Below the pieces are notes generated by a model. That model did no database searches, was not told the DNA's origin, and worked only from the letters and a program-made list of their open reading frames with translations. A stretch of 64,000 nucleotides of DNA from Rhynochetos jubatus (Eukaryota; Chordata; Aves; Eurypygiformes; Rhynochetidae), in assembly GCA_027574665.1 (NCBI GenBank), contig CM050648.1, positions 36,838,200 through 36,902,199 of the forward strand, written 5' to 3'. Every line of letters begins with the position of its first letter. The stretch's first letter is position 1. Positions 2,354 through 60,986 of the stretch are shown piece after piece. Both the position numbers and the translations under genes were made by a program.

Positions 2354-2473
2354 TCAGATCTCTCTGATACGCATCAATATCCAATTTACATGGGCTGTTA
2401 GAGAGGACAGCTTCTTGACATTATGGTAATTGATGCCTTGGAAAGATGTGAGATTGATGTTCTCACTTAGAAC
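2354..2473 (-). CDS. Last coding exon F with stop codon
   Basis: A strong acceptor (ttttctatttcttttcag) opens this exon in phase 0, exactly as exon E leaves. It encodes 39 residues, VLSENINLTSFQGINYHNVK and then a stretch ending VNWILMRIREI, before TGA at 2354-2356. No donor is needed. About 70 nt after the stop lies an AATAAA signal, so this is taken as the 3'-terminal exon. The C-terminal tail is moderately hydrophobic and helical in character, without a clear targeting signal. With exons C to E it forms a compact Cys-containing C-terminal domain. Confidence 0.72.
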   Translation of the reverse strand, partial: VLSENINLTSFQGINYHNVKKLSSLTAHVNWILMRIREI

Positions 2474-5400
2474 CTGAAAAGAAATAGAAAATATCACCCT
2501 ACAAAACAATTCCTTATATGAATCAAAAATCCGAAACCATCCCAAAATTACTAATTATAATGGGTACCTAAAGTGTGGGTATAGTGGGGATGGAAGGAGA
2601 GAGTAACTGTAGAGGAGCTGAGCCACTTGTACCCCCCTAAAACAATGTAGTAGCACTTATACAGCTACAGAGTTTCCAGACAATAGGACACTGGAATATC
2701 TTGGGGAAAAAATAACAGGGAACAGTTGAGGAAGTGGAATTAAAATAGGTTTTTTTGCCCTCCATGATTTAAAGTTGGCATATATTTTCAGATTTGAAAT
2801 TTGTGGAAACATTTGCAGTTCAGCAAAATGATTTTTAAGAGGTAAAACAAAGTCCTGCTTTGAGGGCAACTATGGGTATGTCTATACTTGGATGTATCCA
2901 TGACTGCAAGTACAGATGCAAGATGAATTCCTGCCTAAGAACTCCTCCAGTGCACTAAATGTACACACACACTATGATTATCCTCTATGTCAACACTGTT
3001 GTCCTGTGATATTCTTAAAATTAGCAGTAAATGCAATCAAAGTAAACTCCATGTTACAGCAGAATACTGCAATAAAAATAAAAGGTCACTGGTGAACACC
3101 ATTCTTGTAATATGAATTGATTAGAAGAAAAAAAAACCAATAAAAAAATTCCAAGGACTACATCAGATACATAAAAATAATTAAAAACACTTCACCAAAA
3201 GCACAGGTACTTCTAACATCAGGGCCTAATGAGAACCAATGAGGTATCCTGAAAACAATGAAATGGAAATGTTTCTGATACTTAATATTGAGATATATGC
3301 TCTTTAGTATTTGTTCTTTGTGTAGACTACTAATTCAAAGTATGTTTAAAAAGGCATTATAAACTGCCTTATGCTAGTAGAGCCTATGCTTTAGGAATTT
3401 TTCGTTTTGAATCAAATACTAATCAGGAGAGGAGATTCACCTTCAGAGGAGGGTGACCGTTCACTCACAGGCAGAGAAAGTGGGATTATATTTAGATTAA
3501 TACATTTCTGACATAGTCTTCCAGAAATATGCCACTTAAATAACCAAATTTCCATTCCATTCCTCCCAAAAATTAACCAAAACCACCCAAACAGAAGGCA
3601 GCTTGTCATTTTTGGACAAACTCTCCTTTAATCCCCAATTAAACAACTACAGGCAAAAATTATATAATTACTGTGTATATGGTTGGCTTTCAAATACTGG
3701 TCTATGACTAGGGGATGACTTCTTTTTAAACACAGCAAACTAGAGCTGGATAAATTTGCTCAAATTCTGAGGTTCCCCAGAAGTGAACAACAGAAACTTT
3801 GAAATTCCACTTGAGAAGAAATCCTGAAAACCTGTTATTTCAAGACAATACAAATGCTTCTGCTGTCTTTTTAATAATAAAGAAAAATTCCCCCGGGGGC
3901 TGCAAGCCAGCAAAGGGCACTCCCCGAGGAGGAAGCGAGAAATTACATGCCTGAGAATTGCAGCTCCATCATTCTCTTCGCTTTGTCCTGTGTCAGCTAA
4001 ATTTTGTTGAATCTGGATATTCTGTAACACATTTTGGTTTCTGTGAATCGTTATTTCCTAAAGAACACACATTTAATTGGAAAATTCCTTATCTGCTTTG
4101 CTGAAGATTCAGCTGACTTCTTTTAGCTAAACCTGGTGAGGAGTACAGGAAAGTTCAGCAAAGAATCCTTAAATCTTTCAGCAAAAAAGAGGAGTAAAGC
4201 TGTTTTCATGTGCAACCAAATTCAGCCTACATTTTTAAGGCTACAACCAGAAAGAAATGTTCTCAACTCTGAAGAACAGAGGTAGTGTCATGTTTGTATC
4301 AGAACCTTAATTAAGGAGATCTTGGGTTGCTGAATCACTGAATCTGCTTAAATGATTTCAAAATAGGTGTCGTGGTTTAACTCTGGCCAGCAATAAAATG
4401 CCACGAAGCTGCTCACACACCTCTTCCCTCCCTTCCTCCAAAGGAGGGGGAGAATCAGAGGAAAAAGACAAGGAAGCTCGTAAAATTGATATAAGAACTA
4501 TTTACTAATTGAATATAAATGAATAACACATAAACAAATACATAACAATACTACTACTACTAAGTAATTAAAATAACAGAAAAATAAACCACATGATACA
4601 ATTGCTCACTACTCGCAAACCGATGCACAGCCACATCCCAAGCAGCGAGAGTCAGAGCCCCAGAGCTATCACAGCAGGGTCTGAGCAGGCCCCACCAGCT
4701 ACAGCATGACCAGGAAACCCAACCAACCCACCAACTCACAAAACAGCCAGCAAACGAGTTAGCGAAACAGTTAGCAAAGGAGGTAAGGTGCTAACAGAAG
4801 AGTTAAGGAAAGAGTTAAGGAATCCCTAAAAGAGTGATGCCCCTGAGCCCACTCCCTGCCTAAGTCCCTACGTGCTACGGAATGAAATACTCCCTTGGTC
4901 ACTCTGGGTCAGCTGCCTGAGCTGTGTGTCCCCTACACGGCCTGTGGCGAGACAGCCAGAGCTGGGAACGCTGCTGCAGTGTCAGAAGTGGAGAGAGACC
5001 TTGAATCTGGTGCAAGCACTCCCCAGCACCAGCCAAAAAGACACCTTATCAGTACTTTTCTTGGGGTAAATCCAGAAACCAGCTTCATACCAGCCACTGT
5101 GAAGAAACTTAACTCTTTCCTGACTCAAACCAGAACAGTAGGTTAACTATGCTCTTGAAAAAATCCTAATAAATACTTCAGTGATTTATAGTTAGTTTAT
5201 GAAGCAGTTATTAATTTGGATTAAAAAACATATATACATTTTGAAAGATTAATGAATATCATGAACTTAACACAAGAAACTTATTAGAAATATAACATGA
5301 TGATGTTTCTTTGGCAACTAAAGAGAATTTCAGTCAGAGATGAGGAGAAGGATAAGTTTGACTTATTAGACTTCCCCCCTTTTTTTTTCAAATCATCTGC

Positions 5401-18023: not shown

Positions 18024-18159
18024 CTGGCACATCTCGCGCAGATATTCAATGTGACCTTCGCTTGAGGCTCAGCCGTATGAGCACTTCGAGTTTGATTGAA
18101 TTTGCTCCCAGAAGACATCACACTTGTTACTCCTTCCATTCTTAGATCATCAAGATCCT
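18024..18159 (-). CDS. Internal coding exon C, ending in the first C-x2-C pair
   Basis: The acceptor reads cttgttgcag and the donor CCAG/GTAACA. The exon is 136 nt, phase 1 in and phase 2 out. The one base left by exon B plus AG makes a Glu codon, followed by [20 protein letters not shown], then a Thr/Ala/Gln-rich stretch, and the exon ends with LNICARCA. The ICARC motif is the first of two C-x2-C pairs in the C-terminal part of the protein. The acidic start continues the acidic end of exon B, which supports direct B-to-C splicing across about 36.7 kb. The role is unknown. Zinc binding is inferred from the Cys spacing only. Confidence 0.75.
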
Positions 18160-21100
18160 CTGCAACAAGACAGAATGACTGGATGAACACATGATTAAAT
18201 TTTGTAGCAATAAAGGTGCTTCATCTGTAGAATCACTAAAGAATGGAACAAAACAAAAATTAGGAAGAAAATACAGTTACTTGTATAATAATAGGAAAAT
18301 ACATTTGAAAGGACTTTTATTCATATATGTTATCACCCTGTTATTAGGGGTTCCTTGAAAAATAGTCATCATTTCCACTTCAAAGTGCTGCATATTTTTT
18401 CAAACTTTCTGTGATTCATTTATAAAAAAACTTGTCATCAGGAGATGATGTCCAATAGCTCCATTTGATATAGGGAATATTGAAGAAAAAAATCTCTTTT
18501 TTTTAAGTGTATTCTCCTCCTCTGATTTTTTTCATCATCTATTCACATAGCAATGAAAAAATATTGATAAAATAGAAGTGCTCTGCTAAACCCAGAAAAT
18601 GCGAAATGGATTCATATATCACACCGAAATAGACCATAATGTGCATACCTATATGCACCATATTGCTGTAATATTTGCGCAACTCATAATAATAATGTCA
18701 TTTTCTACTACTGTAAAATCATTCCCATTTTTCAGGAAGACTGCTGAGGCTCTCAGAGATTTCCCCTCCCCCTCCAAGATCACACTGGAACAGCGTAGCT
18801 CAGACTGTAAATGAATTCTCCTGGTTTACAGCGAGGACATTCTTTATAATCTGTACATTTTTTGCTAACATAAAACAGGCAAATTCTGTATATTTAAAGT
18901 ATCCATAAAGCCCAATTTTCAGTTGTTTATAATTTGGTTAGGTTCTAGCTGAAAAGCAAACAATGAAAACACTGACTAGCTGCTATTAAATAAGTACCAA
19001 CAATTCCACGTAGTGACTGATGCCTGTGGCTTACAGTTTACAGTATGTGATCACCTAATCAACATCTTTTTCAGATAATGTGTACACACACATTTTCATA
19101 TATTTATGTTACAAAAGAAACCTGATGTTAAAGGAGCTAAGTGAAGCAGGAAGTGCATAAAGGCAGACTTTAAATCCTGACATCAGATGGGGGAAAGTCA
19201 CAGAGAATTGTAAAATCAAAGAGACAGTGTTCAATTTGAACTTAAAATACACAAGCAGTCATCACAGATACATCACAGTGGAGTGCCAGGCTCCTCTTCA
19301 TACACAAAAGAGGATGCTACAACCTGGCCAATCACTACCTGAAATATTCCTAGTTGTCCCCTATAGTTCATAGACTCTTACCACTGTGCTTCAGCCTCTG
19401 GGCAGTGTGGTCAGACTGTCCGGATAATGCCATGTTAACAACACCCTTTTTGGGAGACACCCATTTTAATAAGCAACATCCAAGAACAGCAAAGCTAAAT
19501 TTCAATGAATTTTTTCTGATTAAAGTCTTTGAACTAGATTTTCTTATTGGTAATGTTTTATTTTACTGCTTAAGAAAACTCTTCTCCCTCTTAAAATTCA
19601 TTGACTTGGTGGTATAAATCGACAGTTCCACTGAAGTTTCTGGCATTGATTTATACCATTTCCACACCTTTTTCTTTAAATGTCATCGATGGCTAATATA
19701 CAAACTAATTCAAAGGGCTTGGAAGGCTATATGATAATGAATTATGAAATCAATCAGGTATGAGTCATTTCAGAAAAGGTATTACATATTCGGAACACAT
19801 TATGTATTAAAATAAATACAGTTTAATTGTGCTTTAAAGAGGTGTGAAAAGTTCCATATTTTTTAACAGATGTAAACCACTAGATGGATTACAGTTTAAA
19901 TGAAATCGAAGCATATGCCTTTGGGGTTTTTTTTTCCCCCCTACACAGATGTGATTTCTTTTAAATGAGGTTTTCAACTGTTCTCTGCCTGATTAACTTC
20001 TGGCTCTCTGACGACTACGACTGTTTCCACAAAGCAATGACATCGGTTGCCCTCTATCACAGTTTTTACATTTGAATCTGTACATAAAAAACATGCCTTT
20101 TTTAATTTTTAGTCAACTCAAGAGAAAATTAAGTGAAAATTTGTGCAAGAAACGTGGATTTCAGAGGAGCCAGTAGTTGTAGCTAACAGAGAAGTAGGCA
20201 GAACATTATGCAGTAGTGATTCATTGTCTCATGCTGTTAGACCAATAGCATTAATATGCATGCTAAAATGCAGATAAAAAAAAAGAGCGAGCCTACAACA
20301 CATATAATTGTTAATTTTTCTAAAGGAATATTCATTGATCTAATTCAGCATTGGATGGAATTTGTCCATGACAAGCTACAAAAAGCTGCTAATATTCCAA
20401 CTAGATAGAGAAGTATAACCTACCTACCAAAGAGTAAGTGCAGTAAGTGCTTATTGCACTTCTGCCTTAGTACTGAGTGATTTCAGTTTCTTCTGGATGC
20501 CTCAAATTTAGAGTGAAGGTATTGCATTGTCTTATCACTACATCAACTTGGCTTTGAGAAGCTGCCTGGTTCCCAATGCCCATAACTTTGGATGGGAATT
20601 TTTGAGATGTAAGCAAGTTTACATGCCATCTGGCAATCTTCCTGATTGACTACATTCATTACTGAAGGCCCTTGATTGATAAAAAAACAAAAACCCAAAT
20701 AAACAATCCCAACAATAAATCATACAGTAATTTTAGTACTAAACTCTGGGCGTGTGTGTATGTATCATTCAGCAATTGATGCGTGTTTTACAGAAGAGTA
20801 TTTGTTCATAAATGAGGATGTTACAAAATAAATACAAGCAATGAGTGCAATAATATATTTCAAGAATAGAAACATGGTTTCCAAAGGTTCAAATGTTTCT
20901 GTGTAACATTGGAAAGAATCATTCTTAGGAAAAAAGGGATTTCATTGAGAAGTCAATTCAGTTACAGGGTCTGGAACACTGAATCTTTTCTCTGTCTTTG
21001 TATTCTTTCCTAGACCAACTAGTGATGATACAGCTGAGCGGTTCAGTGATTTTATTGAGCAGCAATGAGGTAATTCACTAAGAAAAAGAAAAGCCAAGTT

Positions 21101-22370
21101 GATGACTGCTTATGTGATAGAAGACAAGAAGATGGAAGACAAGAATACCATAAAACAACTCAAATCTTTAGAAAATTGTTACCTATTTTTGTACAGTGAT
21201 AGGCTGGAAGTTACAAAAACAAAACACTTACTTGTACTAATAAAGGTCTGTCATTTTAATGCATGACTGTGCACTGTATTTCTTTGGTTTAATGTTAATT
21301 CTCTGTTATTCTACACATGAATAGGGTATGTGAAGACCTTGGTCCTATAGCAATTTCAATTAAGCGTGTTCTGTGTAGTAAAACCAACTACCTACCAACC
21401 AATCAAAAAACCTTTACATTTTTCTCAAATCAGCAGTTCACCAAAATAAATTCACACAGCTGCAATCTTCATGCGTTGCCATAACAATACAAGAAAATAC
21501 TTAAAAGTGAGATAAAGATCACAAGTGCTATACACCACAGCACAGAACCAGATGTTTTCCATATTAATAATGCTGCACTAAGCTCAAGTCTCTGTGATTT
21601 CTTAACAGACAAGTTTCATCAAACAGGGAAGGGGAAAAAGGGGATCTATTTCAGCTAAACAAGAACATAGCCCAGAACAAGGTAACATTTTTAAACAGGA
21701 CGTTGCTTGTAATTATTTACTTCCTTTCTTACTGAGGAGGAAGGGCTGAGGAGAGGGAAAGGGGAATAATGCCAAATATTCTAGAAACTGCAAGATTGCT
21801 TAATATCTTGGGAGGAGGGTGTGGAATCATCTTACAAACATCTACATGACTCACACACCTTTCACTGTAAGGACAGAGCTCTTCTTATGCAGAACCGCTA
21901 TTAATGCAGTAAAACGTCAGTCGTGCAGAAGGCTCACACAATCAGTTTATGTGCTGCATTGCTTGATATGATCCAGTCACTTTTGTGTCCTTCCCCCACT
22001 ACAAACCATGTAGTTATTTCCCAGGAGTAATTCAAGAAGTATAAGGTGGAAAGCTGGAAAAAGGCCTGGTTCATCTTTAGAGAGATTATGACAGCTCAGA
22101 GTTTGTCTGTTCAGTCTAATGCTAAGAAAAGCACTAAATGTTTTCACTTGAGAGTAAAAAATTCAGATAATGAATTCTGATTTATGTTCTTGCAGGCCAC
22201 CAGTCAATTCTGATGCACCAGTAGAATAAAGCTTCTTTCTCTGCAGCAATGAATTTCTCAAGGCAGTGTTCTTACATCATGATAGACATTGATGTATTCC
22301 ATGTACATAGCATTGATTTGTCAAGGATTATTTACTGGAGCACTGATGCAATATGCTCTATTACTCCCAT

Positions 22371-42300: not shown

Positions 42301-42678
42301 CTGGCTTTTTATTTTAAGTAATATAGATATGTCATGAGAAGAATAAGGGAAATACAGTAATCATTCACACATGTTTGCATGACAGACATACTACTTATAC
42401 AGGTTATCCAAAACATCTATTTTAAACACCTCTGCATGTCTTCTAATCACATAGAAATTTTCCTATATCATCATATATTTCACTTTTTCATCTTTCTGAA
42501 GTCCAGATCTAACGTTTTTGTCTTAGTCTGCATGTTCTGTTTGGTAAAACATTTATTTTCACAGTAGTTCACTCAGACCAATATTTACTTTCTACTGGTT
42601 TAATTTTCAGTATTTTACAAGCAGAGTACAACAAAATATTTCAGGGGCTCGTGACCCTCCCAACACTAGGAATACATA

Positions 42679-43070
42679 GGATCATACAGGCTCAGCAGGA
42701 CTTTAGGAGGTCTCTGTCTCACCTTCCTGCTCAAAGCAGGGTCAGCCAATATGCTTAGGGTTTTATCCAACTGAGTCTTGAAAATGTCCAAAGTCACTGA
42801 CTCCACAACCTCCCTGGGCAAAATGTTTCAGCAGTTAAATACTGCCATACTGATTACACACACACACTCTTTATATCTAACCAGAACCTTGCCTGCTTCA
42901 GTTAATGCCCAGTTTTGCTCACCCTCCTGCTGTGCACCCCAGTAAAGAGTATGCCTCCTCCTTCTTCTCAGGAGTCCCCATTTAGGCACTGGGAGGCTGC
43001 TCTAGGTGCCCCTGAGGCCTTCTCTTTTCCATGCCAAACAGAGTTCCTTCATCTTCACCCCATAGGTGGG
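42679..43070 (-). mobile_element. Older CR1 3' fragment
   Basis: Blocks such as actccacaacctccctgggc, aaaccttgcctgcttcagtt-like text and the closing tccatgccaaacagagttcc match the complement of CR1 3' regions. There are many substitutions and no intact tail, so it is an older copy or subfamily than the one at 10230. Confidence 0.8.
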
Positions 43071-44302
43071 ACCCCCAAATTATGAATGCTGGACAGTGTT
43101 AAAAAAAGCTGTCAACTGCTCTTAGCTGCAAGACTTCCTGCAGCATAACTCCTGCAATCTCTTTACTACCATGACTTATGTCCTGTAGAGTACTCCATGC
43201 CTTTAGCTCTTTTTTTTTTTTTCCCCCAGAAGGGCTGTAAGAAAACACAAGCTGTAAGAACTGGGTGAATGTCCCCATGAAAAAAGGCAACATCTCTACT
43301 TTTTTATTGTCATCTTATCTCAAAGATGCTATATCCCAACACATCAAAGTAGATAGATCTGCTGCAGCAGGTGGAGCTTCAGGAAAGCTGAACTACCCAT
43401 CTGACCCACATTTTTGTTCATGTGGTTTTGACTTTTTTTTTTTTTAAATATCGCCTAGAGGAAAAAGCAAGGTAGGGCTCTATTTTTCTGTTCTTTCTCC
43501 TAACTATGCTATCACTTTTTCTCTAAATCACAGATACTTCCTCCATTTTTATTATTTTAGCCTTAGTAGACAATATTACTCTTGCATAAGATATCAAATG
43601 TTTTAAGTACTAGTTCATGGTAGTTTCTACTGAGAATACTAGTTGTTTTGAAATACCCACACTTCAGCAGAAAATTGTGTTACTGAATCTCTAATATTAT
43701 TCCCTTGTGCTGTTACAGTACTTGTCAACTCCAATTTCACTGTGCTAGGACAAATACTAAAAAATGGCAGAGTTCTACAGTCTAAGCACAGACCTCACGA
43801 TCCTCTGCTTCCTCTCAATAAAATTATCGCCATAATCCTCACTCTGTCTCTCATACTTACAAATCCACATTGCAAATCTGTGAACCTAAACCCAAACAAT
43901 TAATTACATATTAACAACTAAGGGATCAGTCTTTTGGAGTTAATAACATCATTAGTGTTAAGCGTGACAGAGATTTCAACCTGATTTCTGAAGTAATGAA
44001 CTGACATTCAGCATTCCCGACTCATATTCTGACTTCCAGAAACTTGTCAGAGTTTATCTGTGTGTTTCAAATGTTCCTTCTACTAGTTTTGCATCAATAA
44101 ACTGTAGTGACAATTGTGAATTAAATTATAGCAATTGCTAAACTGGATGGCAAGTCTTAGCACATGCTAATCTTACAAGCCAAAATTAAGAACCGGTTTT
44201 TAGGAACTGGATGTATAGATACTGTTTGGGTTTGGCTTTTTTTCCCGGCAATCCTCTAATATTTATTGTGCACTCATTTTTGGTACTGGTTTTGATGGTA
44301 GT

Positions 44303-44320
44303 TATATATATATATATAGA
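44303..44320. repeat. Short (TA)n run
   Basis: Uninterrupted TA dinucleotides, under 20 bp. Confidence 0.85.
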
Positions 44321-46556
44321 TTTGCTGCTTATAAACCTTGGAAGATGTAACATCAGGTGCTGTGTTATCATGCCACATGACAAACAACTATCCTGCAAAC
44401 AGAGGCCAAGCTTATTTGAATGACACAAAGCACTGCCTTTTAACAATGGAAAAACCCACCAAAAGGATAATGGAGTACTGTCCACACAATTTCTAGATCA
44501 CTTTAACTAAAACTAGTTGGGGTAGAAGAGGTGGGAAATCCTGGAATCGAAATGTACGGACTGCTGGAATGAGCAAGAAACAACTTCTTTCCTGTCGAGA
44601 GAAAAGCCAAAAAAATTTGGTCCGTTTTCTTAAGAGAGAGTGACAGGGAATCAGCCCTCAGGGAGTAAAATTAATTTAACTCTCTGTCATCTTCCCATAC
44701 TATTGGCAGAGCAGGAATAATTAATGCAAAATGTACTCATGAGTGATTTAGTGGCAAAGAGATACCTTAAGAGTATCACTAGACAGTAAATATAGAAAAG
44801 GCATTACCTACCTTCAAACAATGAGAAATACTTGTAATTTCAAGGCAAACTACATGTGACTACTCCATATGAAGTCCCCTAAATTGTACCTAGTATTTAG
44901 TGATCAAATGCTATATTCTACAGAGAAAGACAGTTGGTGTGTGAAGGAGAGCGAAAGGATAGTGACAAATTAGATACCTGGTTTCTCATGACTGTGATGG
45001 CATGCATAAAACACTAGCCCACAGTCCCACTCCAGCACTATCGGACTTGGAATCAACTCCATTAAATACTCCACCTGCACTAGAAACAAATTTAACTGAT
45101 CTACTGAGACACAGACAGAGAAAGCTGCAGGACACAGTTAAAGCAAAGTATGAAGAAGTGACTATTTCTGCTGCCACTGAGTCCTGACCTGTTTAGGCCT
45201 TACATTATTTGAGTACAGCTACATATTTCAACCACACACATTTAGCTTTCACAAGACTTTTAAAGTAAGAGATTCAAGCAGATTGAGCCTTTTCATGGCT
45301 CGTCACCTAAAAGCCAACTTTGAGACAAGGACACAGTTCTGTGAATCTCCAGTTCTACGATAACTGGAGAATATGTCTTATCAAAATACCCTTTGTTCCT
45401 TTCCAGAAATTATTCAGATGTGGTAACTTAAGTGAAATTCTCAAATAAGTTATATTTATTTACATTAACATACCTTCTCCTCCCTATTTCAACTTTCCTT
45501 AAATGGCAAAGGAAGGAGTAGCTTCAGCACTCAGTCTAATACTGAAAAGTTATTACTTTCTCCCAAAACTCTGCTGAAAGAGCCATAGTGCTCCACGTGA
45601 GAAGGAAGCAAGCTCATGTCTTGACAAGCACCAATACAATTACACTATGTCATGTAAAATTCATGCATTATGAATGTAATAAAAAATATATATTTTGATT
45701 ATGAATGCGTTCTGGTGATTGTTCTACACGGCATACATCAACAGTCTTGGGGAGAAAACAGACTAAATAGAAGTTTTAAATCTAACTCTTAATAGAAGCC
45801 ACTAGTGTCACTGAACAACATCAAAAAATTACTAATTAAAACTTACTTTAATATATTAATTAGGAATAAAACCCCAATAACTTATGTCTCAAACACATTT
45901 ATAGGGTCAAACCACCATCAAAACCAAATAAAACAGAAAAATAAAACAATTAAACTACTGGGAAACAATACCTAACAAGTTTTTCATCGTAATACTTAGA
46001 TAACGAGATAAGATGTTCATCATATTCTGTATTTACAATACTACTTCCTTAGTTGGGGTACATCAGATTGAACAAACATTTTACTTCAGGTATTTCATAC
46101 ACTTTCCACCAACTGTACCAGAATCTGAAACACCTATATGCAATATGAAATGTAAATAAAAAACTGTTTTCTGGAAGTAGCATTAAATGACAGTTTCAGC
46201 AATTTGAAAGTCTTCACCAAGTAATCAATGTATCAGAAAAACAGTATGAAATTCCTGAAGAGGTGCTGTGGTGTTGTGTGGTGTATGACAACAGAATCAG
46301 TTTTTCTACAGGGAGTTCTAACACCTTCCTCTCAACGAATTTCAGTTTAGAAAGAAAGACAGACAACCAGATTTTGAAGCATTTCATTCAGGGTTTTGTC
46401 TTGGCTCAAGTTGTTTCAATTCTTACTTTGTGTTGATACATACATCATATTCTGCCAGATACTATAAACAGCACTATGAGTAATACCTAGGCATTTCTCT
46501 TGCAATATATGTATAAATGAATGTCTATTGCCACCCACCAAAACCCTGCTACGTTG

Positions 46557-46902
46557 GTGGTCTTTCAGTACTTAAAGGGGGCTTTATAAGAAACCTGGGG
46601 ACAAACGTTTTAGGTGGGCCTGTTGTGACAGCACAAGGGGTAATGGTTTTAAACTAAAAGAGGGGAGATTTAGATTAGATACAAGGAAGAATTTTTTTTA
46701 CAACAAGGGTTGTGAAACACTGCAACAGTTTGCCCAGAGGGGTGGTAGATGCCCACCCCTAGTACCATTCAAGGTCAAATTGGATGGGACTCTGCGCAAC
46801 CTGACCTAGTTGATGTCCCTGCTCATTGCAAGGGGGTTGGACAAGATGATCTTTGGAGGTCCCTTCCAATCCAAACTATTCTATGGTTCTATGATTTTAT
46901 GA
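46557..46902 (+). mobile_element. CR1 LINE 3' fragment
   Basis: It starts with tctttcagtacttaaagggg and includes gagatttagattagataca and ttgcccagaggggtggtaga. It ends with the tail ctatggttctatgattttat. It is on the plus strand, 5'-truncated and moderately diverged. Confidence 0.9.
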
Positions 46903-47680
46903 AAAATAACGTTGAGCGCTGCTGTGTTCGCATGTAATCTTTTTGCCTTCCCATCCTTGCCTCCCAATGTGAATTGAATTCACACATGCCTCTCTCAATA
47001 AACCCTCTCCTTATCTACTTCTCGGATGAACAATCTCTCCTAAGTAGCTGAAAAGAGCCCCAAGGCTGAGGAATTCACTGAAGCAGGCCAAACACTAGCT
47101 GTAAGGGGTTATGATACCTGAAATCAATTAATCATACTACCTCTCCCTCTGCTGCCACCTCCCTAAATTGTCCTGGTAACTCTGCATCAATTCTATCCTC
47201 CCACCACAAGGACAATGATTTCAGACGTGTACAACTGAGCGAGTAGTAAGGAAACATCACCAGAGTTCATGCACTTCCTCTGCTGCCTTCTGAATCTCCA
47301 AGTGAAGAAATCCCGTCCTTTCTTACTCAAGTACAAGCTTGATGGTTGTAACTGACTCTTTCTTTTGTGCTGCACACCCCAAAAGGAGAATGAGATTGCT
47401 GAGGAACTGGTGGCAGTTTAGCATGCAGACTTGTCAATCAAGTGGGCCAGATCTCCTCAGCCAGCTTCTGAACTCTGACATCCATATTTTGAGCTTCAGT
47501 GTAAACTGAAGAATAAGTATATGCAGAGATTATTGCAGATGACGAATACCGGACAGCCAGCCGCCTCACTAAAACAGATCCAGGTACGAAATACGTTATA
47601 TCCACTGCTGGATTTCCTTATACAAGTCTAAACTAACCTGTGCCCTTAAGAAGTATGAAGTAGTTTGGACATCCGTTTGT

Positions 47681-47739
47681 CCAGCACCCTAGGGATATCC
47701 TAGTGATTTTCCAGCACGCTAGGGATATCCCTAGGGATG
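47681..47739. repeat. 30-bp imperfect duplication with a 16-bp palindrome
   Basis: ccagcaccctagggatatcc at 47681 recurs as ccagcacgctagggatatcc at 47711. The second copy contains the perfect palindrome CTAGGGATATCCCTAG (47719-47734). The surrounding sequence was not recognised as a repeat family. Confidence 0.8.
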
Positions 47740-50675
47740 AGTAAAAGAACAGGGCAAGTACATAACAGTACTTTACTAGCATAATCCCTCAGTCCCCCGC
47801 TGCTTCATAGCCAGGGTCTTTCTGAAGCAGGGGTGGTATTTATATCTTACAGGAAAACAGGATATGTGATGCTAAATACAATCACTAGGAATGTAGAACA
47901 GGAGGGAGGTTGAAGTCCTTACCCTGCCCTTCCCACATATACAAATAAACACCTATTACACCTATCGTTTTTCCTATCCCAGCTCTTCTACTCTGTAAAA
48001 ATAACAAACATTTATTGAAAATCCTCAGCTATTTTCAGCCACTAAAATTTCAAGAAAGAATCAGAATCATAAAGCATGCAGTCCTCAAATATACAGATTC
48101 AGTTTGTATCTCTACAAATGATGGGAGACACCAAGGTACATAAGTATTCCTGTTGGATCAGGTCTGAGGAGCAGCTATCACTGTCCTGACCCAAAATTGC
48201 CAGCAGCATATATAGATGGTAAGTAAAGATCCTCTCAGTTACCTGCAGTTTCAAATTCGGGATCAAGATAGGGAATGTACCAGAACTAACATACTTAGTA
48301 AAGTGGTATCGATCTAGCTTCTGTGAAATTATCTAGTTTTGCAGATTTACACCGTAGTCTCCACAATCCTCTGCAGCAATACATTCCACAAAACAGCTAT
48401 GCTGGACCCATGAAAAGATACTTCCTTAAACTTAATAGCTTAAAATGTTACCTAAAATATGGCACGATTCAACCACAGCTCTTTACTATTTGCCTGACAC
48501 TTGATGTGCTCAGCACATCTGGAGGTGGGCAGAGAAACAGGATTGGGGAACAGAGTTGGCTAAGAGAATCACCTTCTTGTCTTTCTTATAAATGGTGTTG
48601 GAGTGGGAGGAAGGCTCTTCCTACAGCTTCTCTAAAGGGACCTCTGTGTCTTCACAGCTGTTAAACATCAGAACTGCAAGCATATGAGTTTAGAAGAGTA
48701 TTGGTCTGACGCCATGATACTGGGATCAGTATCACATCATAATGAGTGATATACACCATGTTGTTGTGCCCACTTGCCTTCCTTTAGAAGAAAGCCCAGG
48801 CATACAGGCCATAAAAAGGCAGTGTTAGTACAGACATTTAGGTTTCTGATCTGGACAGTCACTAGGCTTACACGGTGTCCTTGCTCTGTTCTTCAGGTAC
48901 AGGCTTAAATGAGGCTTTGTTTCCTTGTGTAAATGGTAAACAAATGACATTTCAGGCACCTGCCCATCATGATATTCAATACACAGCTATTTCTTGAAAA
49001 TGAATTATTCTTTTGAAGCTTTTCATTAGCTCATGTAACTCACTTAAACTCAAGAGAATTTAGTATCTCTAACTATAATTGATTTTCTCTCTCCATTTTC
49101 CCTTTAGCAATATGAAGCACAATCAGTTTCAACCCATTTTATGCTCATCAAACCAGAAATAACTACACAAGTATTGCAGAGAGTGACTAATTCAATTCAT
49201 AATTTATTCTAACCTTACAAACACCCTCTTAACCAAGCTACAGAACGTACTAAGCTTAGTAGAAGTTATTGTCAGTCTAAAAATTCTGTGTAAACAAACA
49301 CCTGTAGTATTACTGACAGTAAAATTCAAGAGCAGGATTCCATTATTTTAACACTTTAAACAACAAATCCGTGTTCTCTGAATAACCAGTTAGATGTTTG
49401 CTTAAACTAGTATCAACTATAAGATTCTCACTGATGTTGCTGCCCTTTGGCATACTATAGCATCTGAAATCAATGAACGCCATGAATGACATTGAGAGAC
49501 CTGTGCGTCTCTCTTGCTTCAGTGACTTCATATATTGGCAGAAAGAAAAAAATACTGAATATGGTATTTGTTAAACTTCTACACAGGTGTTCAGTAACAA
49601 GTATAATGCATGAAAACATTGATTTAAAATTAGCAGTAGATTTCAAGTTTATGGCTTCCCTCTAGACAACAGTCCTGCAGATCAAAGGTTCTGCTAAAAA
49701 ATACTGTTGGCAGTATCTGCATTAATGCTGCAGTTAAAATTTCTGTGAAATGCCATAAAAAATCCCAAAACTTTTGGATGTTATTTCTCACCTTAACTGT
49801 TTTGTAAAAATGAGTCCAACTGGTTTACCAATCCTGACATTTGTATACTACGTTCCCATAAAATGAATAAGAATGATAAAAATACAAGTTATCCATAATT
49901 GCCCATTTTTAAAAGAGAAATTCCTTCTCACAACCTTGGTGGTTTCTTTGCTGCTCTTTTTCCCCTACTTTCCTCTCCACTTCCCCTTCCACTAGAATTC
50001 AATATTTATTACATGTTCTCAAGACCATATCCTGTACATGGATCCCTCCAGGTAAACTCCATATAACCAACTACAGTAAAGGAATAACAGAACATGTATG
50101 TTAAAAGAGAAGAAAAAAGTGAAAGGAGAAGTTACAGCAAATACGACCTACTGAAGGAAAGAATATTTCTTTGTGTGAGTCCACAGAAGACTAGTTGAGC
50201 TCTACAGGTTTTACAGTCTTTACAAATTACAGTGCACTTATGCAACACGATAAAAATCCCAGCCAGATACCATCACTTACAAACTGCACCCTCTGGGACA
50301 ACCATGGTCACTTCTCTGCGCTACGCTAAGGTCTTCGTGCACAACAAAGGCCGACTAAGACGCAAAAGACACAAGAGACACGGGGCAAGTGTGAAAGACA
50401 TTCTAGAGTCCACAATTATGGTCTAAAACACCCATGGGGGAACAGAATCAGCTGTAAGTCAAAGGCAATATAAAACTGGGGAACAGTTTAACAATCGCAA
50501 GAGATGTAACTGTACACTGGTCAATCCCAGGAGGACAAGAGGAGCCTTTATCTAAAAGAAATGACAACTATGACCCTGGAAATGCCAGAGAGAGTAGAAC
50601 CAACCTTCCATCATGTCAATGCAACCTCTCAGTCTTCAAGAAGACATTAGTGATGGAATAAACATCTTTAAGGGA

Positions 50676-51182
50676 TGCACTGGGTCTGGCTGGGAGGTAG
50701 CTAATTTTCTTCATCATAGCCCAGGCAGTGCTGTGTTTTAGCTTTGTGACTAAATGAGTGTTGATAGCACACCAGTCTTTCAGCTACTACTGACCAACAC
50801 TTGCACAGAGTTAAGGCTTTCTCTGTTTCTCACTCCGACTCACAGCTTGTGGGCAAAAGGCTGGGAGGGGAGACAGCTGGGACAGCTGACCTGAACTGAT
50901 CAAAGGGATATTCCAGGCCATATAATGGCATGGTCAACAATAAAAACTGGGGCATGTTTATTTCCAAAGCATCGGTTTGCTTGTGGAAGGTGACGAGTGA
51001 TTCCTTTGGCATCACTTGTTTCAGGTTTTGAGGTCTTTCTCTCTCTTTTATTAAACTATCTTTATCTCAACCCATGAATCTTCTTGCTTTTGCTTTTCCT
51101 GTTCTCTCCCCCCTACCATTTTTGGGTAATGAATGAGTGAGGGGCCCTGTGGTCCTTAGCTGCTTACTGGGGTCAACCTACA
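50676..51182 (+). mobile_element. ERVL-like solo LTR (plus strand)
   Basis: It begins TGCACTGGGTCTGGCTGGGA and has the gtagctaattttcttcatca block. It then has a cagctgacctgaactgatca region with gggatattccaggccatata, and a closing ctggggtcaaccta. Inside are an AATAAA (near 50939) and an ATTAAA (near 51050), as in the avian ERVL-type LTRs I know. The TG start and the near-complete end (about 507 bp) make it a nearly full-length solo LTR. Target-site flanks AGGGA and AGGAG match only partly. It lies opposite to the host gene. Confidence 0.82.
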
Positions 51183-51582
51183 AGGAGGGAAAAAACATCT
51201 TTTGGAACTTTTGTCTTCAACTGTTCAGTGTCTATCCAAATTCTAAACCTTTCAGGAGTTTCAAAGTACCTTATAATGAAATGCATCAGAAATGGTCTAC
51301 CACACAGATATAAAAGAAGATTGAAAATAAATGGAAAATGAACAGAAGACTGAAGATCAGACCTTTTGCAAATTGTAATAAGAGTAACCTGCATTTATTG
51401 ATATTTTTCCTAGAACCAGATAGTTCTATTCAAATTGGGATGAACTATATCTTCCACATCAGACTCTAAAGAAAAAGCCACTGAATGTCAAATACCTATC
51501 ACATAGAAAGCGACAAAAGTAAAGTTTAAGCTACCCTTCATTCTTTCATTATTTCAAGCACACACTTGCATCAGTGCATTAC

Positions 51583-51723
51583 CTCTGCCACTGAAAATTT
51601 TGCAAAGTCTAGTACAGTCAGCCTCCACATGCGGAAGAGGCCTACTGTCTCCCAGAGGGGCCAGCTTCTGCACATGCACTACACAGCAGATGCTCACAGG
51701 TAATGTTGTCGATTCCCCAATAG
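51583..51723 (-). CDS. Candidate cassette exon inside the giant intron
   Basis: On the minus strand a T-rich acceptor (gattcttcttttttggaag) is followed by 141 open nucleotides and an AGAG/GTAATG donor. Phase 1 in and phase 1 out fits exactly between exon B, which ends with one base, and exon C, which needs one base, so inclusion would keep the frame and add 47 residues. The peptide includes the run TLPVSICCVVHVQKLAPLGD and has several Cys and Val residues. The plus strand is also open across much of this stretch, which weakens the coding argument. It could be a real alternative exon, a decayed exon or chance. No family is recognised. Confidence 0.33.
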
Positions 51724-53859
51724 CTTCCAAAAAAGAAGAATCAGCAAAAGGTGACATGATGAGCAATTCACACAGCTTTCTCCCACGCAATCGTTCTACT
51801 TAAACCGGAACAAAATGGGCTGTGGGACAGAAAACTGTTCTGAAGATGAAGTACAACCCACACATCATCTTTTCGAGGGCCTTGTGGCCTCTATTCTGGC
51901 AAATGGTGTATTCCAGTCACATAATGGAAGAGAAGCTTTTGTCCAGCTGGGACAGACAATGAAGAGAAATAAACCGCTGCTAATATTAGAATAATTTATC
52001 AGGTCTAGAGTCTGTTTCCTGCATGTTGCCTAAGACCTCTCGAAAATGGGGAAATCAGAAGTGTTCCTTCTCTGCGTCTTATGTCATATATAACGAGTGA
52101 TAACAGAAATCAGAATGCAGCCCCATAAATATTCTGTGTCTTCTTTGCACATACATTTCTTTTTAAATGGATCCTTCAGAAGTGTGACAGCTCAATTGTT
52201 TCTTCTATTTGGAATGTTTCATTCTAGCTAAAGACACCTTCATTGACGATTCTGATGTGAGTACTAGGAGAGGTTTTTTTTAAAGGAAAATATACCAACA
52301 GTCAGTTCCATGCTTTTAATACCTCAATAAATCAACCAAACTCTGAAATAGATTCTCTTGAACACACAAAGATAGACGTTTGTGTTATGCAAAAACCTGC
52401 ATTTTAAGTAGGGTACGCATTAAAATAATCTGCTATAAATAGTCCAATTTGTTTTCCCAGAATCCAGACTTAGAAGCATGAGGTTTTGCAATTTTTAAAG
52501 AAAGGGCTGAATAAGCAATGAATACTGAACTCTAAAGGGAACAAGTCAAGTAGCTATATGCAACAATGCCCTGCAATTCAGTGATGGCAGAAAGCCATGA
52601 TTTGAAATTAGTTATACTGCATATAAGCAGTGTAAAAACCATCCAAGCAGTTAATGGATTAATGCAGTACATAATAAAAAAAATTCAACTCCAGTATCAT
52701 ACAGTTACTGATCTGGAAAATATAGCACTAAAAAATACTTATGTTTGCTGACAGAAAAACTTTAATTCTTTAGGTTACCTTCAAAAGAAAATAAAAACCC
52801 CTCCCTGTGTAACACTGTCATATCCTCAAGTTTTGGGCAGTTCTGCAGGCTCTAACCTAACTCATATCTCATATGAAACACATACTGTCAGCAAATTGCA
52901 AAATGAGAATGGATATAAAAGCCAGTCTTTCAGAAGCACAGCACCTTCAACACCAACATGTGCATACTGTACTTTCTATCAGTGGTAGTTACCATAACAT
53001 GGCTATATTATAATTACTATAACCATGGCTACTCATCAAATATGCCATGATTTTGCCCCAGAATCACCTATATAACACCATACCCAAACCAGAAGTCCTG
53101 TTTGTGACCTCTACTACTTTTAAGTTGATTTTGCATAAACTTTACCAGTTTTCATAAATTTCGTGATAGAAAATTGTTTTTTGCATGGCACAAAACCAGA
53201 ATGGATTCTTACAATGGAGTCCTTATTAAAAAAACCAGAACATTTGTTTGGAAACAGATAATATTTTGCCCAAACATCAAGACACTAGAAAATAAAATTT
53301 ACTTTATACTGCCTGTCTGGTTCCAGATATCTTCAGGGATTCAAGTGTCTGAATGGAAATACCTACACACGTATTGGATACCTTTTCCTCACTACCTCCC
53401 CAGAAGTTAACAAAAGATTCTATTCTGTATTTGATACATACTGAGGCCAATAACATCACACACATCTACTTACTGTACCTTCCAGAGGCCACAGAATCCT
53501 AGAGGAGTCCTGTGGTTTCTGCCAGTACAAGATAGACATTCAGCCTTCTTTTTAAGACAGATTGACAAAGTTGGAAAGATCTGTAAATTGCAGGAGGAAA
53601 TAAGGAGGTAACACAGCTACAAACTAATTATGGCCCTCACTGGAATCCATGGGTTAATCCTGGAAATACCAACTGATTCCATGAAGACTGCAAGCCCACA
53701 GTCACAAACAATGGGACTTCCTTCCAGCACAAAGAACTAATAGATCCACTATGACAACTGAATGACCCAGCCCATTACCTCTTCTTTATTCTAAAAATAA
53801 ATGCATGCAAACCTAAAAATACTGAAAAAAATCAAGTATATATTAATTTACAATTATTT

Positions 53860-54055
53860 AGGCATAACAAAAAACTTTCTGACCATGAGCATGGCCAAAC
53901 ACTGGAACAGGTTCCCCAGAGACCTGTTTTATCTTTAGAGAATAAAACTACAAGTGAACAACGTTCAGAGTAACCTGCCGATTGTTTTGAGCAAGGGATT
54001 GGACCAGGTATCTCCAGAAGTCCCCTCCAATCTCAACTATTTTGTGATTCTATGA
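53860..54055 (+). mobile_element. CR1 3' end fragment
   Basis: The words aaacactggaacaggttccc, cagaagtcccctccaatctc and the tail gtgattctatga mark the last 190 bp or so of a CR1 on the plus strand. The 5' part is diverged. Confidence 0.85.
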
Positions 54056-54892
54056 AGACTGTAGTAAGGAAGCAAGAGAAATAATACAGAGTAGAGCACC
54101 AAGTTTATCTGATTTTTAGATTAATGTCCAACCTGAAACAAGTAATTTGTGGTAGAATTCATAAAAGGAAGAATTCTGAGCTATCCTGATGCCCCATAAA
54201 GTTCAATATAGCAAAAATTGGGGGAAGAAAAATTAAATCCACAACTACCTTTTAAGCATATTACATTAAAGCTTTTAAAAATGGCAGGAAAAAAGACTAT
54301 TAATTAACTTTCTTCAACTATTTCCCTCCTCTCGCACCTAGTAATTCTAGGAAAGGGAGGAAACAGTGAGCATAGAGCTTTCTAGAGTACAACTTGACAT
54401 ACAATACAGTCCACTGGAAAATTACAATCAAATCCCCCGAAGAGATTACAAATCTCCATTACATAAGCTATTTGTTGCTAATAAGTCTCAAATAAAACCC
54501 ACTGAAGTTAGAACCATGATACAGCTAAGAAAAAGAACCAGATGAAAGCCAGTGAAGCAGATTCTGATACTTATACATAAATACATTCTCCAAGTAGAAT
54601 CTACAAGTAATGTATGTAGGAAATCAAATAAATTGCTTTAAACACCTGAAGTGTTTGGTCTTTTGTGAGATTTTAATGCAGATGGCAGCTTATTCACACG
54701 CATATATGGTCTACTTCACTTCTGAAAGTTGCAAGTTAAACCCTATGAATCTCCACATAGCTGCTGGATACTTACTCTTCAGACATTGGGAGAAGATTCA
54801 AACTAACCTATGTTTGATCAGATGATATACTTCTTTTGATTAATCTATAATAAAAATGTATCAGAAAATACATATAATTTTTTTGCAGTTAC

Positions 54893-55059
54893 CCAGGAGT
54901 TCCATTGCATCATCTTCATTGTCAATATCTTCTTCGGTGACAGAGGGAGCTGTGCTTTGAGCAGAATCAAAGGAGTCCTGAGAAAGCATGGCAGCCAGCA
55001 GTTTCTTATGTTGCTGCTGTTGTTGCTTTAGTCCTTTGGTCTTTGGCTCCATTTTTAAG
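54893..55059 (-). CDS. Internal coding exon B, Gln-rich then acidic, of the unnamed minus-strand gene
   Basis: The exon is bounded by a good acceptor (ttcctccctcacag) and a CTGG/GTAACT donor. It is 167 nt, enters in phase 2 and leaves in phase 1. The encoded segment has a basic start ([10 protein letters not shown]), five Gln in a row, a short hydrophobic stretch ([15 protein letters not shown]) and an acidic end ([15 protein letters not shown]). This pattern suggests a helix or interaction segment followed by an acidic linker. An ATG in good context lies seven bases inside the exon at 55050-55052. A shorter product could therefore start here, but the open phase across the acceptor and the match to exon A make an internal exon more likely. 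The domain family is not recognised. Confidence 0.75.
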
Positions 55060-56069
55060 CTGTGAGGGAGGAAAGCACAACTTTCTCTTACTGATCTTCT
55101 CTACAAAATACGTCACACATTTGTCAAATTACTGTAGCCTGTGATGCCTTTCAGATCTGAAGATTAACACATAAACCAGCTGGTTATCACTCATTCCCTG
55201 ATCATTGGAAGTTACATCAGTTTGGGTTTTCAGTTCCTACCTAAAGTTTTGACTGAATCATGATGGGAAATTTCCCATTGGCTTTATGGGCATTAATCAA
55301 GTCTAAATAAGGCACATATAAAGAACAGGAGGTAAATTATTAATCAGTATTGCTGAGGCACAGCAACAAAGCTGAGAACAAAGAACTGCTCCCCTGAGTG
55401 GTTATGTTATCACAATCCCACAAGATTAAGAGCTAAAAGTTATAATAATTATCATATTATAATCTCATGAGGTATAACTCATGGTTTGTTGACCTCTGTC
55501 CCTAACTTAAGTAACAGACAACTGGAACTGCACAGAACTAATCAGAAGGGTCTAAGCCTTGCTACAGCTAGCAATTTCTGATTCCTTAGAATACCGAGAC
55601 ACAGACAACAGCACAGAGGTTTGGTGCCCTTCATGAGAGTATCAGCAACACCACAGACTGTCTTACAGCCTGTTGCAGGAGGGCAGATCTGTTGTAAATG
55701 TATGAAAATTAGCATCATCAATGATAGTTCATTTCCTACTGCAAGGCTTAAGACTAAGTGGACCTTGGAGATGGAGAACAGGCTTTGTTTAGGACATGAG
55801 GTTGTGGATGGTGCCTCTGACAGCTTTAGTTGACATTGGGCTCTAAGAAACAAGAGTATCATTAAAAACCGCCCAAATTCCCCACTGAGGGGGATTGCTT
55901 GAGGAAGTTTCCCCAAGAGCTTTGCTGCTTCTCAAAATTTCTCAAGGAAACTTTTCATGTAGAAAGGGAGTAACAATGACGTGGAGTTTAATCTTATTTT
56001 CACCATGTTTGAATTTCTGAAAGATGAGCTCAGTACCAGCAGGATTGACATCAGCACTTTTATATGGTT

Positions 56070-56930
56070 CTATTGGGTTTGCATGGCAAGGTTTTCGTAG
56101 CAGGAAGGGCTCATATGAGAAGCTGCTAGAAGCCTCTCCTAAGTCTGACATAGCCAATGCCAGCCGGCTCCAAGACGGATCCACCACTGGCCAAGGCTGG
56201 GCCCACCAGTGATGGTGGTAGCATCTCAAAGAAACCTGCGCAATTGCGTCTGGGTGAGAGGATGAGACTATGTGAGAAAAGACTTTGCAGACACAAAGTT
56301 CAGTTGGAAAGGAGGGGGAGGAGGTGCTCCAGGTGCCGGAGCAGAGATTCCCCAGTAGCCTGTGGTGCAGACCATGGTGAGGCCGGCTGTGCCCCTGCCA
56401 CCATGGAGGGTCACAGGGGAACAGAGAGACACCTGCAACCTGGGGAGGACCCCACGCCGGAGCAGGAAGATGCCCGAAGGAGGCTGTGACCCCATGGACA
56501 GCCCAGGCTGGAGCAGGCTCCTGGCAGGAGCTGTGGCCCCATGAAGAGATGAGCCCAGGCTGAAGCAGGTTTGCTGGTAGGACTCGTGACCCTGCAGGGG
56601 ACCCACGCTGGAGCAGGCTGCTCCTGAAGGACTGCACCCCATGGGAGAGACACACACTGGAGCAGTTCATGAAGAACCACAGCCTGTGGGAAGGACCCAC
56701 ATCAGAGAAGTTCCTGAAGGACTGTCTCCCGTGGGACGGACCCCACGCTGGAGCAGGGGCAGAGTGTGAGGAGTCCTCTCCCTGAGGAGTAAGGAGCGGC
56801 AGAGACAACGTGTGATGGACTGACCACAACCCCCATTGCCTATCCCCCTGTGCTGCTGGTGGGGAGGAGGTAGAGAATCCAAAGGGAAGTTGAGCCCAGG
56901 AAGAAGAGAGGGGTAGGGGGAATGGAATTA
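56070..56930 (+). mobile_element. GC-rich avian LTR fragment with internal minisatellite
   Basis: The sequence runs from ttgggtttgcatggcaaggt through gccaatgccagccggctcca to gttgagcccaggaagaagag. It resembles a common avian LTR whose middle is made of imperfect tandem units around the words ccacgctggagcagg. The usual A/T-rich 3' third with the polyadenylation region is missing after about 56930, so the copy is truncated. The GC content is far above the flanks. The 330-codon minus-strand frame (55942-56934) and the smaller frames here follow from the stop-poor repeat, not from a gene. Family naming is from memory. Confidence 0.8.
56430..56755 (+). repeat. Minisatellite inside the LTR
   Basis: Imperfect units of roughly 40-60 bp share a gctggagcagg core and alternate with phrases like ctgaaggactg and gtgggaaggaccc. 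At least six cores are visible. Unit length is uneven. Confidence 0.75.
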
Positions 56931-59289
56931 ACATCGCCTTGCTCCCTTACCGCAGCAACAGAGAGCAGCACAAAACAGTGACAAAAGGAGTCTTTCCTCT
57001 GTAGCAATCTAGAACATTAAGGGCAAAACGATATCCCCTCATCAGTCTGACATTACTAATACAGCTACCTTAGACTAGCTACACTATCTTTCCCAGTCAA
57101 AACAGCAGTGAAACCTGTTCTTTTAGTTTCTCAATTAATTCCCCTTCTTTTTCTAAGTTACTGAGCCTGGCTTTCAGATATACAACAGATGTGCTACCAT
57201 TGCTCATCATCACAGGACCATAGGTTTTTAAGGAGGAAATAGTGGTTCTTCCACACTCTCCACTACTGAATGGTGCAAAAAAGTGAGGTTCATGGTTGCA
57301 AAGACAGAAAAAGCAGACAACTCACAGATTCCCAAATATCACATACTCACTATGATCTGCTTTATGATGAAAGGCCAATATTGAAAATGGGCATGTTATC
57401 AACAGACCTGTGGTCCACAGGAATATGCTGTTTTCTGCAGCCCATTCAGTCCCCTATAGAATGCTACAAATGTGGAAGGACCCAGGGCTTCCCCTTCCCC
57501 CCAACAGACAAAAACTTATACATTATGGCCTGTGAAAACAACACAGAGACAGGGAGTCACACGACACGAATGGGAATTACTCTACCACCGATCTACCAAT
57601 GCCTAATCCTCTGGATATTTATACAGTATTTCATTTATGTAGCATTTCCTTATGTTTATTGATAAAGATATTACCTGGAAATAATGGGACAATTACATTT
57701 TTTCAATTTCCTGTTCTATTGCTGTAACTGAAGATGAGGATTAGTTCTGAGAGTTCACTGGATTATCAAATAAATCCTGATAATTAGTGATCAATAAACT
57801 ATCACTTTTTATTAAAAGTGTTGCTAAATCAAATTTAACAAGATATAATTGGAAACATGTAATACGAATTTCAAATTACTCCCTCTTACGGTTGCCAGGC
57901 AAAAACGTAACTGAATTATTTTAGGCTATATTAACTATGAAGTAGATGAATGAAATACCGATGAGGTAGCCAAAAATTCTTTACAACCCATAACAATTCA
58001 CGCTTTTGAGAGTTTCATTGAATCTCATAAAAATCACACTATTCCCACCACTTCTGGATGCTCTAGGTATATGCTACATTACAACTAAAATATTACCTAT
58101 TATTTGTCTCATGCATTTGGTGTACACCCAGTTCCAAATTCTACTAATAATACTTTAATTCCCAGTAACACTGAATCAGACCTTGAAGAAATTGCTGTTA
58201 TTAGTGAACTATTATTAAACATTCAGATTAACTTTCTTCAATATGGCTATTTTGAACTTCCACATCTAGGTGGCATCAATTTTATATCACCACCGTCTTG
58301 AAGTTCTGTAATTGTATTATTATTTTGCAAGACTGCAAACATGTTTTTTATAAATGACTCACAAAAGCTGATGAAATGCTAATGAAGCAAAGAATTATCC
58401 CAGACATAAAATCAGTCATCCAAATGTAAATCCATATGCTGTATGTAATTTAGTAGTTATTCATTTCCACTGAAAATCAGTATTCCCACTTAACAACTTC
58501 AACTTAATGCGCCTAAAAACTAGAGCTATCAGTTTCCCATAAGTCTTTCCTGGCATCAAGTACTCCATATTCTCCTTATTTCATATGTCAGGCAATGTGA
58601 TTTTGTCACGATACTTAACAAGACTTCTCAAATACTACTCTCAAAGCCATTAAACACATTTTTTAATTATAGCATTAGCTGTGAGGTTTCTCACAGCTTG
58701 TACCACCCTCTACAAAGAGAAAAATACACTGCTTTGAATCATCTTTGTTACTCAGAACTAAACCTGTTTGCTTGTTTCTAGCGATCAGAGATGCTTATTT
58801 CTGCTCCTTCTTATTGAGAGAAGGCATACAATATCCTTGATTTGCTCTGCAACATGGAACAGATCTTCATTGAGCATCTTTATTGGACTGCTGAGTAAGG
58901 AAAAAGAAACCCAGGCCCTGACAATCAAGCCTCAGTGCCAGCTGCTGACTCCATTACATTCCCAGAAACTGCACTGGAGAGACCCAGTGTCTGAGTTCTG
59001 TTGGTTCCAATCCAAAGTCTGGCTGAGGGTTCATTAGTACATGCTGCTACTTCTTTGAAATAGTAGTACTTGCAGCTTCCCCCACAATAATCTAATTAAA
59101 AGAAGGAAGAAGTGCTTATGGATAACAAACATTCCCAACATATGAGGAAAGTTAACAAATACAGCCTGTAAGAGTACAGCAAGTGACAGTTCCCTGTGCC
59201 AGGGAGGTGAATTCCCACATAGAAGGCACATGAAGGACACAGTGAAGGAATATTCACACTTCAAACTCAGGGATAAGAGGCTGGAGATC

Positions 59290-59943
59290 TGAGGGTTTGG
59301 GCTGATAGGAAGTTGAATATGAGCTAACAGTGTGCCCTGGCAGCCAAAAGAGCCAACTGTGCCTTGGGGTGCAACAAGCACAGCATAGCTAGCCAGTTGA
59401 GGGCAGTGACACTCCACTGGTGTGGCCCCACCTCAACTATTGTGGGCAGTTTTGGGTGCCTCAATACAAGATGGACATCAGACTATTAGAGCATGGCCAG
59501 AGAAGGTCAACAAAGATGGTCAAAGACCTCGAGGGAAAGTTGAAGAACAGTCAATTGGTCATGTTTGTTCAGCTTGGAGAAGAGAAGGCTGAGGAGTGAC
59601 CTCACTGCAGTCTACACCTTTCTCCAGGGGGGAGCAGAGAGGGAGGTACTGATCTCTCTCTGTTGACCAGTGATAGGACACAAGGAAATGGAATGAAGCT
59701 GCATCAGGGGAAGTTCATACTGGACATCAGGAAAAGGTTCTTCACTGAGAGGGTGGTCAGTCACTGGAACAGGCTTCTCCAGGAAAGCAGTTATGGCACC
59801 AAGCCTGTCAGAGTTCAAGGAGCATCTGGATGATGCTCTTATTCATATGCTTTAGTTTTAGGTAGTCCTATGAGGAGCAGGGAGTTGGACTCAATGATCC
59901 TTTTGGGTCCCTTCCAACTTGAGTTACCTTATGATTCTATGAT
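59290..59943 (+). mobile_element. CR1 LINE 3' fragment, longest in the window
   Basis: About 650 bp on the plus strand. It carries accctcaactattgtgggcag-like text, the agcttggagaagagaaggct block, ctggacatcaggaaaaggtt, cttcactgagagggtggtca, and the tail ttatgattctatgata. It includes the end of the degenerate reverse-transcriptase frame, which is interrupted. It is a different subfamily type from the copy at 10230, judging by its 3' block. Confidence 0.9.
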
Positions 59944-60816
59944 AATACCTCAGACCTTTTCAAAGGGAATGCAGAGAGTTTCTGCCTTCTTAAAAGGGGA
60001 AGAAAAAGGTGTCTGCTGCACAGTAGTAACTGTAATGAGGGAGAAAGGCTACATGGCTGAGGTAGAGCTGGAGGTATTTAAGGCAATTAACAGAAGCAGT
60101 GCACAAGCTTTACACTTGAAGAAAAAAAAAAAGCATGAATCCCTTTTAAAGAAAAGCTGTGAATACTTCATTTTCTGTGATTAACAGGTATCTTTAAATC
60201 ATGGAAAATATACTCCTTGGAAGATTAATCTCTCTTCGTGTAGCTGAAGAACGCGAACGAACATAATTCCCCACCCTCAGTCAACCACAATAAATTATCA
60301 GAAGTTATTTACTGCAGAGTATACAATTTTCTCACTGAGAAAGAATTGTTATTACACCAAGATACTAATTGTAAGAACTGAAGATGAATTTAAGAAGTCC
60401 TGTTAAAACTAACATAGATATTGTTTCCCTTGTCTATCTGTCCTTGCAGTGATAAATCTGATTTTCTCATTTAAGTGTCAAGAAGATTAACAAATAGCTA
60501 CCACCAACCGCTGACCAACAGAAGGGTTTGAAGTATCTGAATGAAGCTATACGTCACAAAATTATTACACAACGGGCTCCAATCTTGTCAACATACACTC
60601 AGCTTTATACATGGGAATAAAACAATGGGATTGCAAATGAGTATAAAAGCATGAGAAGAAACCACTCACATATCAGTATCTTCCGTTCATTCTGCATGCT
60701 GCCACACTGTGGCATGGGAATTTAAAAGCCCTGCAATCTGCTCTCACAACCAGGGTATTGCAAGGACAGCTCCACTATACGAATTACAAAATTTCTAGGA
60801 AGAACCAAAATCCCAC

Positions 60817-60986
60817 CTTCCTCCAGGACTGCTGCTATCCTCACTGTCCCACTGCTCATTTTTATTCCTTGGTATTGGTGGCTGTAGCATCTCAGCAGCC
60901 AGTGGGTCAGCATCATTCTCCTCACGGCCAATCCATTCTCCAATCACACGAGGTCTGAGAAGTGGGGTGTTAAAACCTGTTGTGTC
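60817..60986 (-). CDS. Internal coding exon A of the large unnamed minus-strand gene
   Basis: This exon is the most upstream one I can support. On the minus strand it follows a pyrimidine-rich acceptor (ttatttctcttcag) and ends at a GAAG/GTGGGA donor. It is 170 nt, starts in phase 0 and ends in phase 2 with the bases AG. The 56 complete codons begin [18 protein letters not shown] and continue through an acidic, Ser-rich end (SEDSSSPGG). The final AG joins the first base of exon B to give Ser. The other two frames are not needed to keep the chain open. The encoded stretch is hydrophilic, without a membrane segment or a catalytic motif I recognise. It probably belongs to the middle of a longer protein, because its phase-0 start needs further exons beyond position 64000. 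I do not recognise the gene. Confidence 0.72.

Follow-up and report, generated by a model that had tools for sequence, protein, structure and literature searches.

Strong conservation in birds and reptiles, the lack of an assigned function and mention at human association signals are what draw attention to C8orf34 (vestibule 1). In one report the gene is named at an association signal for hip joint-space width and described as little known in joint tissues (PMC10470292), and in another it is named at a signal for side effects of chemotherapy (PMC10000841); to the hip joint-space and chemotherapy questions the window analysed here adds nothing. The protein belongs to the Pfam family PF17824 (DUF5586), to which Pfam assigns no function. 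No paper was found in the searched library under the name DUF5586, and among the titles and opening lines of abstracts listed for C8orf34, also in combination with cilia and docking, vestibule names or protein kinase A/RIIa, no study of protein function was seen, though one may exist. The gene is nonetheless catalogued in many birds. The closest annotated protein for the present purpose is C8orf34 homolog isoform 2 of the plover Pluvialis apricaria (P0002), which has 550 residues.

Here we describe how a locus of the kagu, Rhynochetos jubatus, compares with these known systems. The window, by which we mean the whole stretch of 64,000 nucleotides under analysis, had initially been annotated as belonging to a large unnamed gene, of which it would carry the 3' part: six phase-consistent exons, five junctions in one frame, a last exon with a stop and a poly(A) signal. 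Only the two end coordinates were given for that structure, without the internal exons, and these ends fit minus-strand position 60986 and the interval 2473..2354.

Identity of the gene

Sequence comparison indicates that the window almost certainly lies inside the already annotated C8orf34 gene, on the minus strand, and that it holds three consecutive coding exons from the middle of that gene, here called A, B and C. Joined together, these exons form 157 codons without a stop, and the joined peptide gives one unbroken match to positions 165-321 of the 404 positions of DUF5586 (302.4 bits, E 7e-90), the order A, B, C being colinear with the family in one frame and a single stretch, with no difference seen. 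The Pfam gathering cut-off for PF17824 (26.6 bits) is exceeded by the joined exons as well as by each exon alone (75-98 bits). Of 730 candidates in a protein search with the joined peptide, 535 passed E<=0.001. The 120 matches listed, which span 97-100% of the joined peptide, are from avian, turtle, crocodilian and lizard species. The majority carry the name 'uncharacterized protein C8orf34 homolog' or 'chromosome 8 open reading frame 34'; in two, a truncated name includes 'Vestibule 1', some are labelled hypothetical, and a single one is unnamed. The best match is to the plover protein P0002, which is identical at 157/157 positions, in the same order and continuous over both junctions; the difference is that the window shows only residues 127-283 of its 550. 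The next seven matches shown, from gulls, sea eagle, penguins and owl, are each identical at 156/157 positions, so the peptide indicates a bird but no particular species. The identity of the locus is thus already known, and the gene is not an unnamed one, since annotated C8orf34 homologs (vestibule 1) exist in many birds. The expectation of a poorly characterised vertebrate protein gene with several exons was borne out, the protein being bird-like, and the exons are indeed short and not evident from the length of their open frames.

Exon A (60817..60986, minus strand, 170 bases) encodes residues 127-182 of P0002, to which it is identical. It begins at a codon and leaves 2 bases over, it matches DUF5586 positions 165-216 on its own (89 bits), and it ranked first in a scan for splice-bounded open frames. 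Its acceptor scores 12.0 and its donor 4.1 on a rough splice-site scale, which is used for all splice scores given here. Exon B (54893..55059, minus strand, 167 bases) was found by searching for a frame-keeping exon between A and C; it opens with the 1 remaining base of the split codon, encodes residues 183-238, leaves 1 base over and matches DUF5586 positions 222-276 alone (98 bits). Its acceptor scores 7.2 and its donor is weak at 0.7, but the joined exons match P0002 gap-free. Exon C (18024..18159, minus strand, 136 bases; acceptor 6.1, donor 3.1) takes up 2 split-codon bases, continues through residues 239-283 with 2 bases left over, and on its own matches DUF5586 positions 278-321 (75 bits). 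The introns between them, A-B (55060..60816, minus strand, 5757 bases) and B-C (18160..54892, minus strand, 36733 bases), are both spanned by the gap-free match of the joined exons to the family and to P0002. Junctions A-B and B-C are confirmed by the uninterrupted match of the 157 joined codons to homologous proteins. By tblastn, each of the three exons is matched by all 120 listed homologs.

Across 23 bird and reptile homologs, invariant residues make up 40/56 of exon A, 50/56 of exon B and 31/45 of exon C. Downstream of exon C, 0/267 residues are invariant in the same 23 homologs, a count that is partly due to some of the aligned proteins not having that part. Judged from these alignments, exons A-C belong to the conserved half of the protein. 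The donor of exon C (18020-18025, minus strand) holds an in-frame TAA, and a transcript that retained the intron would end the protein after ...NICARCAR; a protein end right after NICARCAR was found in none of the 120 listed homologs.

The claimed 3' end

Exons A, B and C account for three of the six exons and two of the five junctions originally proposed; the other three exons are without support, and the frame agreement of the other three junctions is at chance level. At the far end of the proposed structure lies an open frame (2354..2473, minus strand) of 39 codons with a TGA stop, whose peptide would begin VLSENINLTSF and which is preceded by a strong acceptor-like site. If A, B and C were continued by two further exons and then by this stop exon, the window would hold a genuine six-exon 3' end, namely that of an alternative short isoform of C8orf34. 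Three observations are consistent with such an ending. The acceptor at 2473 scores 12.0 on the rough scale, equal to that of exon A and among the two best of 4462 minus-strand AG sites; an AATAAA lies 70 bases past the stop (2278..2283, minus strand) and is probably what the initial annotation took for the poly(A) signal; and database isoforms of birds vary in their tails.

Set against these points is the peptide itself, which had no relative at E<=10 in the protein search (3 candidates) and no Pfam match, and whose 35 5-mers are all absent from the 120 listed homologs of C8orf34. For seven further candidate exon peptides, too, no relative appeared at E<=1 (49 candidates), and all eight share no 5-mer with the listed homologs; the searches for relatives are confined to proteins that fall in a length band and have short words in common with the query, and could miss a new bird-specific tail. 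The protein search that linked A-C to proteins of other birds and beyond gave nothing for the claimed last exon, which as an exon of C8orf34 is unsupported in spite of its acceptor. As for the AATAAA, the window contains 161 copies on both strands, compared with a mean of 101 in shuffles, a frequency that counts against giving weight to the one at 2278-2283.

Keeping the frame is no firmer guide. If A, B, C and the claimed last exon are all kept constant, 29 candidates for exon D and 36 for exon E can be combined into 160 frame-keeping D-E chains. When the last exon was left free, 32 frame-keeping endings with a stop and an AATAAA were obtained, as against 9, 40, 17, 12 and 16 in five control slices similar in length, drawn from other parts of the window or from the opposite strand, so the frame agreement past exon C is within chance. 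The listed homologs, moreover, agree on a different continuation: after NICARC, 116 of the 120 read ARLQG (ARLQGD in 102, ARLQGE in 12 and ARLQGG in 2), three are without the motif and one is different. This continuation would be encoded outside the window.

The claimed 3' end is thus most likely a false chain. It would be a considerable surprise, on the sequence comparisons above, if this bird made a shortened C8orf34 in which exon C runs on to a lineage-specific last exon at about 2354-2473; were it so, the protein would lack its variable C-terminal half. Linking exons through frame and splice sites had succeeded in the conserved part of the gene, but not where frame and splice-like sites were all that remained.

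Among other peptides from this search, 14 of 16 further candidates were without a Pfam match; the remaining two gave a Dof/BED zinc finger match and a short viral membrane-anchor match, both below the curated cut-off (E 0.0085-0.073) and taken as chance. Two exon-like frames on the minus strand, 11729-11821 and 51117-51177, have acceptors of 10.2 and 11.2, with no Pfam match and no relatives in the protein search.

Location of the remaining exons

P0002 extends for 267 residues past exon C; for the 116 homologs with the motif, out of 120 listed, the median extension is 294. We cut P0002 into 90 12-mers with a step of 6 and scored each of them against all six frames of the window. Strong matches were obtained for 22/90, every one in A, B or C, and partial matches for 4/90, at exon edges. 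For the other 64/90 (starts 1-121 or 283-535) the best score was at most 36, compared with self scores of 53-72, and there was no strong match in the window, in a scan that may overlook exons of fewer than about 12 codons. By tblastn of the 120 listed homologs, the best of 23 matches outside A, B and C reached 30 bits and fell in a retrotransposon-like stretch. As there is no strong match to the remainder of P0002, the window represents the middle of the gene rather than its 3' end. By inference, exons before A would lie beyond base 64000 and those after C, among them the part coding for RLQGDNLAERPED, below base 1, on the minus strand. No second gene was recognised in the window: an Rfam scan gave 0 matches at the gathering score, a tRNA scan found none, and Pfam at E<=1 gave no match on four other frames of the window.

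That the window shows only part of the gene would also suit a reading of A-C as a fragment or pseudogene copy rather than a working gene. We regard this as highly improbable, given 157 intact codons identical to the plover protein; with introns and splice sites kept, A-C is not a retrocopy. No supporting point was found for the locus being a separate, unnamed relative of C8orf34, a reading that is close to negligible because the identities of the bird matches listed (94-100%, with 98-100% for C8orf34 homologs from several bird orders) leave little room for a paralog.

Possible role of the protein

For the C8orf34 gene, then, sequence comparison and structure modelling allow a tentative proposal, to which we give somewhat less than even chances: the protein may be a docking-type adaptor with a disordered tail. 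A short helical docking module of the Dpy-30/RII type at its N-terminus, encoded outside the window, would dimerise and bind a helix of a partner, and a long, mostly disordered tail, encoded in part by the conserved exons A-C, would carry short binding motifs. The weak likeness to known Dpy-30/RII modules consists in an alignment of 37 N-terminal residues of C8orf34 homologs with adenylate kinase 8: a profile of the 23 homologs aligned over residues 11-47 with E 0.0037, and a single sequence with E 0.035. The match of the homologs' N-terminus to the docking domain of protein kinase A RI-alpha was weak (E 1.4). The C8orf34 homologs differ from established modules in that their match to Pfam Dpy-30 stays below the cut-off of 22 bits, the N-terminus of a turtle homolog reaching 13.5 bits (E 0.059) and the plover not appearing among the matches listed; the aligned part also lies outside the window. 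A structure model of P0002 places N-terminal helices at residues 2-15, 18-32 and 39-49, with a confidence of 47-64 per ten-residue block over the first 50 residues. This model is poor as a whole (mean pLDDT 40), and its sole confident helix, residues 355-392, falls outside the part covered by the window.

Other features of the window

Upstream of exon A by about 1.5 kb, the stretch 62468-62548 (minus strand) can be aligned weakly (E 0.02), across a stop and a gap, with residues 9-38 of P0023, a pigeon C8orf34 isoform whose N-terminus directly precedes exon A. Going by this match, the stretch is perhaps a remnant of an alternative first exon.

Traces of mobile elements may be present on the plus strand. 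An open frame of 130 codons at 10222-10614 has no Pfam or NCBIfam match, and we take it to resemble the C-terminus of a protein from a CR1 retrotransposon. The DNA at 10390-10502 has a direct copy at 46585-46697 (77%), and that at 10590-10702 an inverted partner at 33818-33930 (88%). A broken stretch with a stop at 59286-59491 (plus strand), presumably CR1-like as well, aligns to the tail of P0036, a swallow C8orf34 gene model, and the alignment suggests that this model includes retrotransposon sequence.

A minus-strand open frame of 334 codons (55942-56946), without a Pfam match, reaches into 56001-60000, which has the highest G+C content (0.439) among the 4-kb blocks of the window. On the plus strand, the 183-codon open frame at 1098-1649, also without a Pfam match, is probably due to chance. 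Finally, a tandem repeat with a 20-base unit in about 3 copies is found at 30489-30551.
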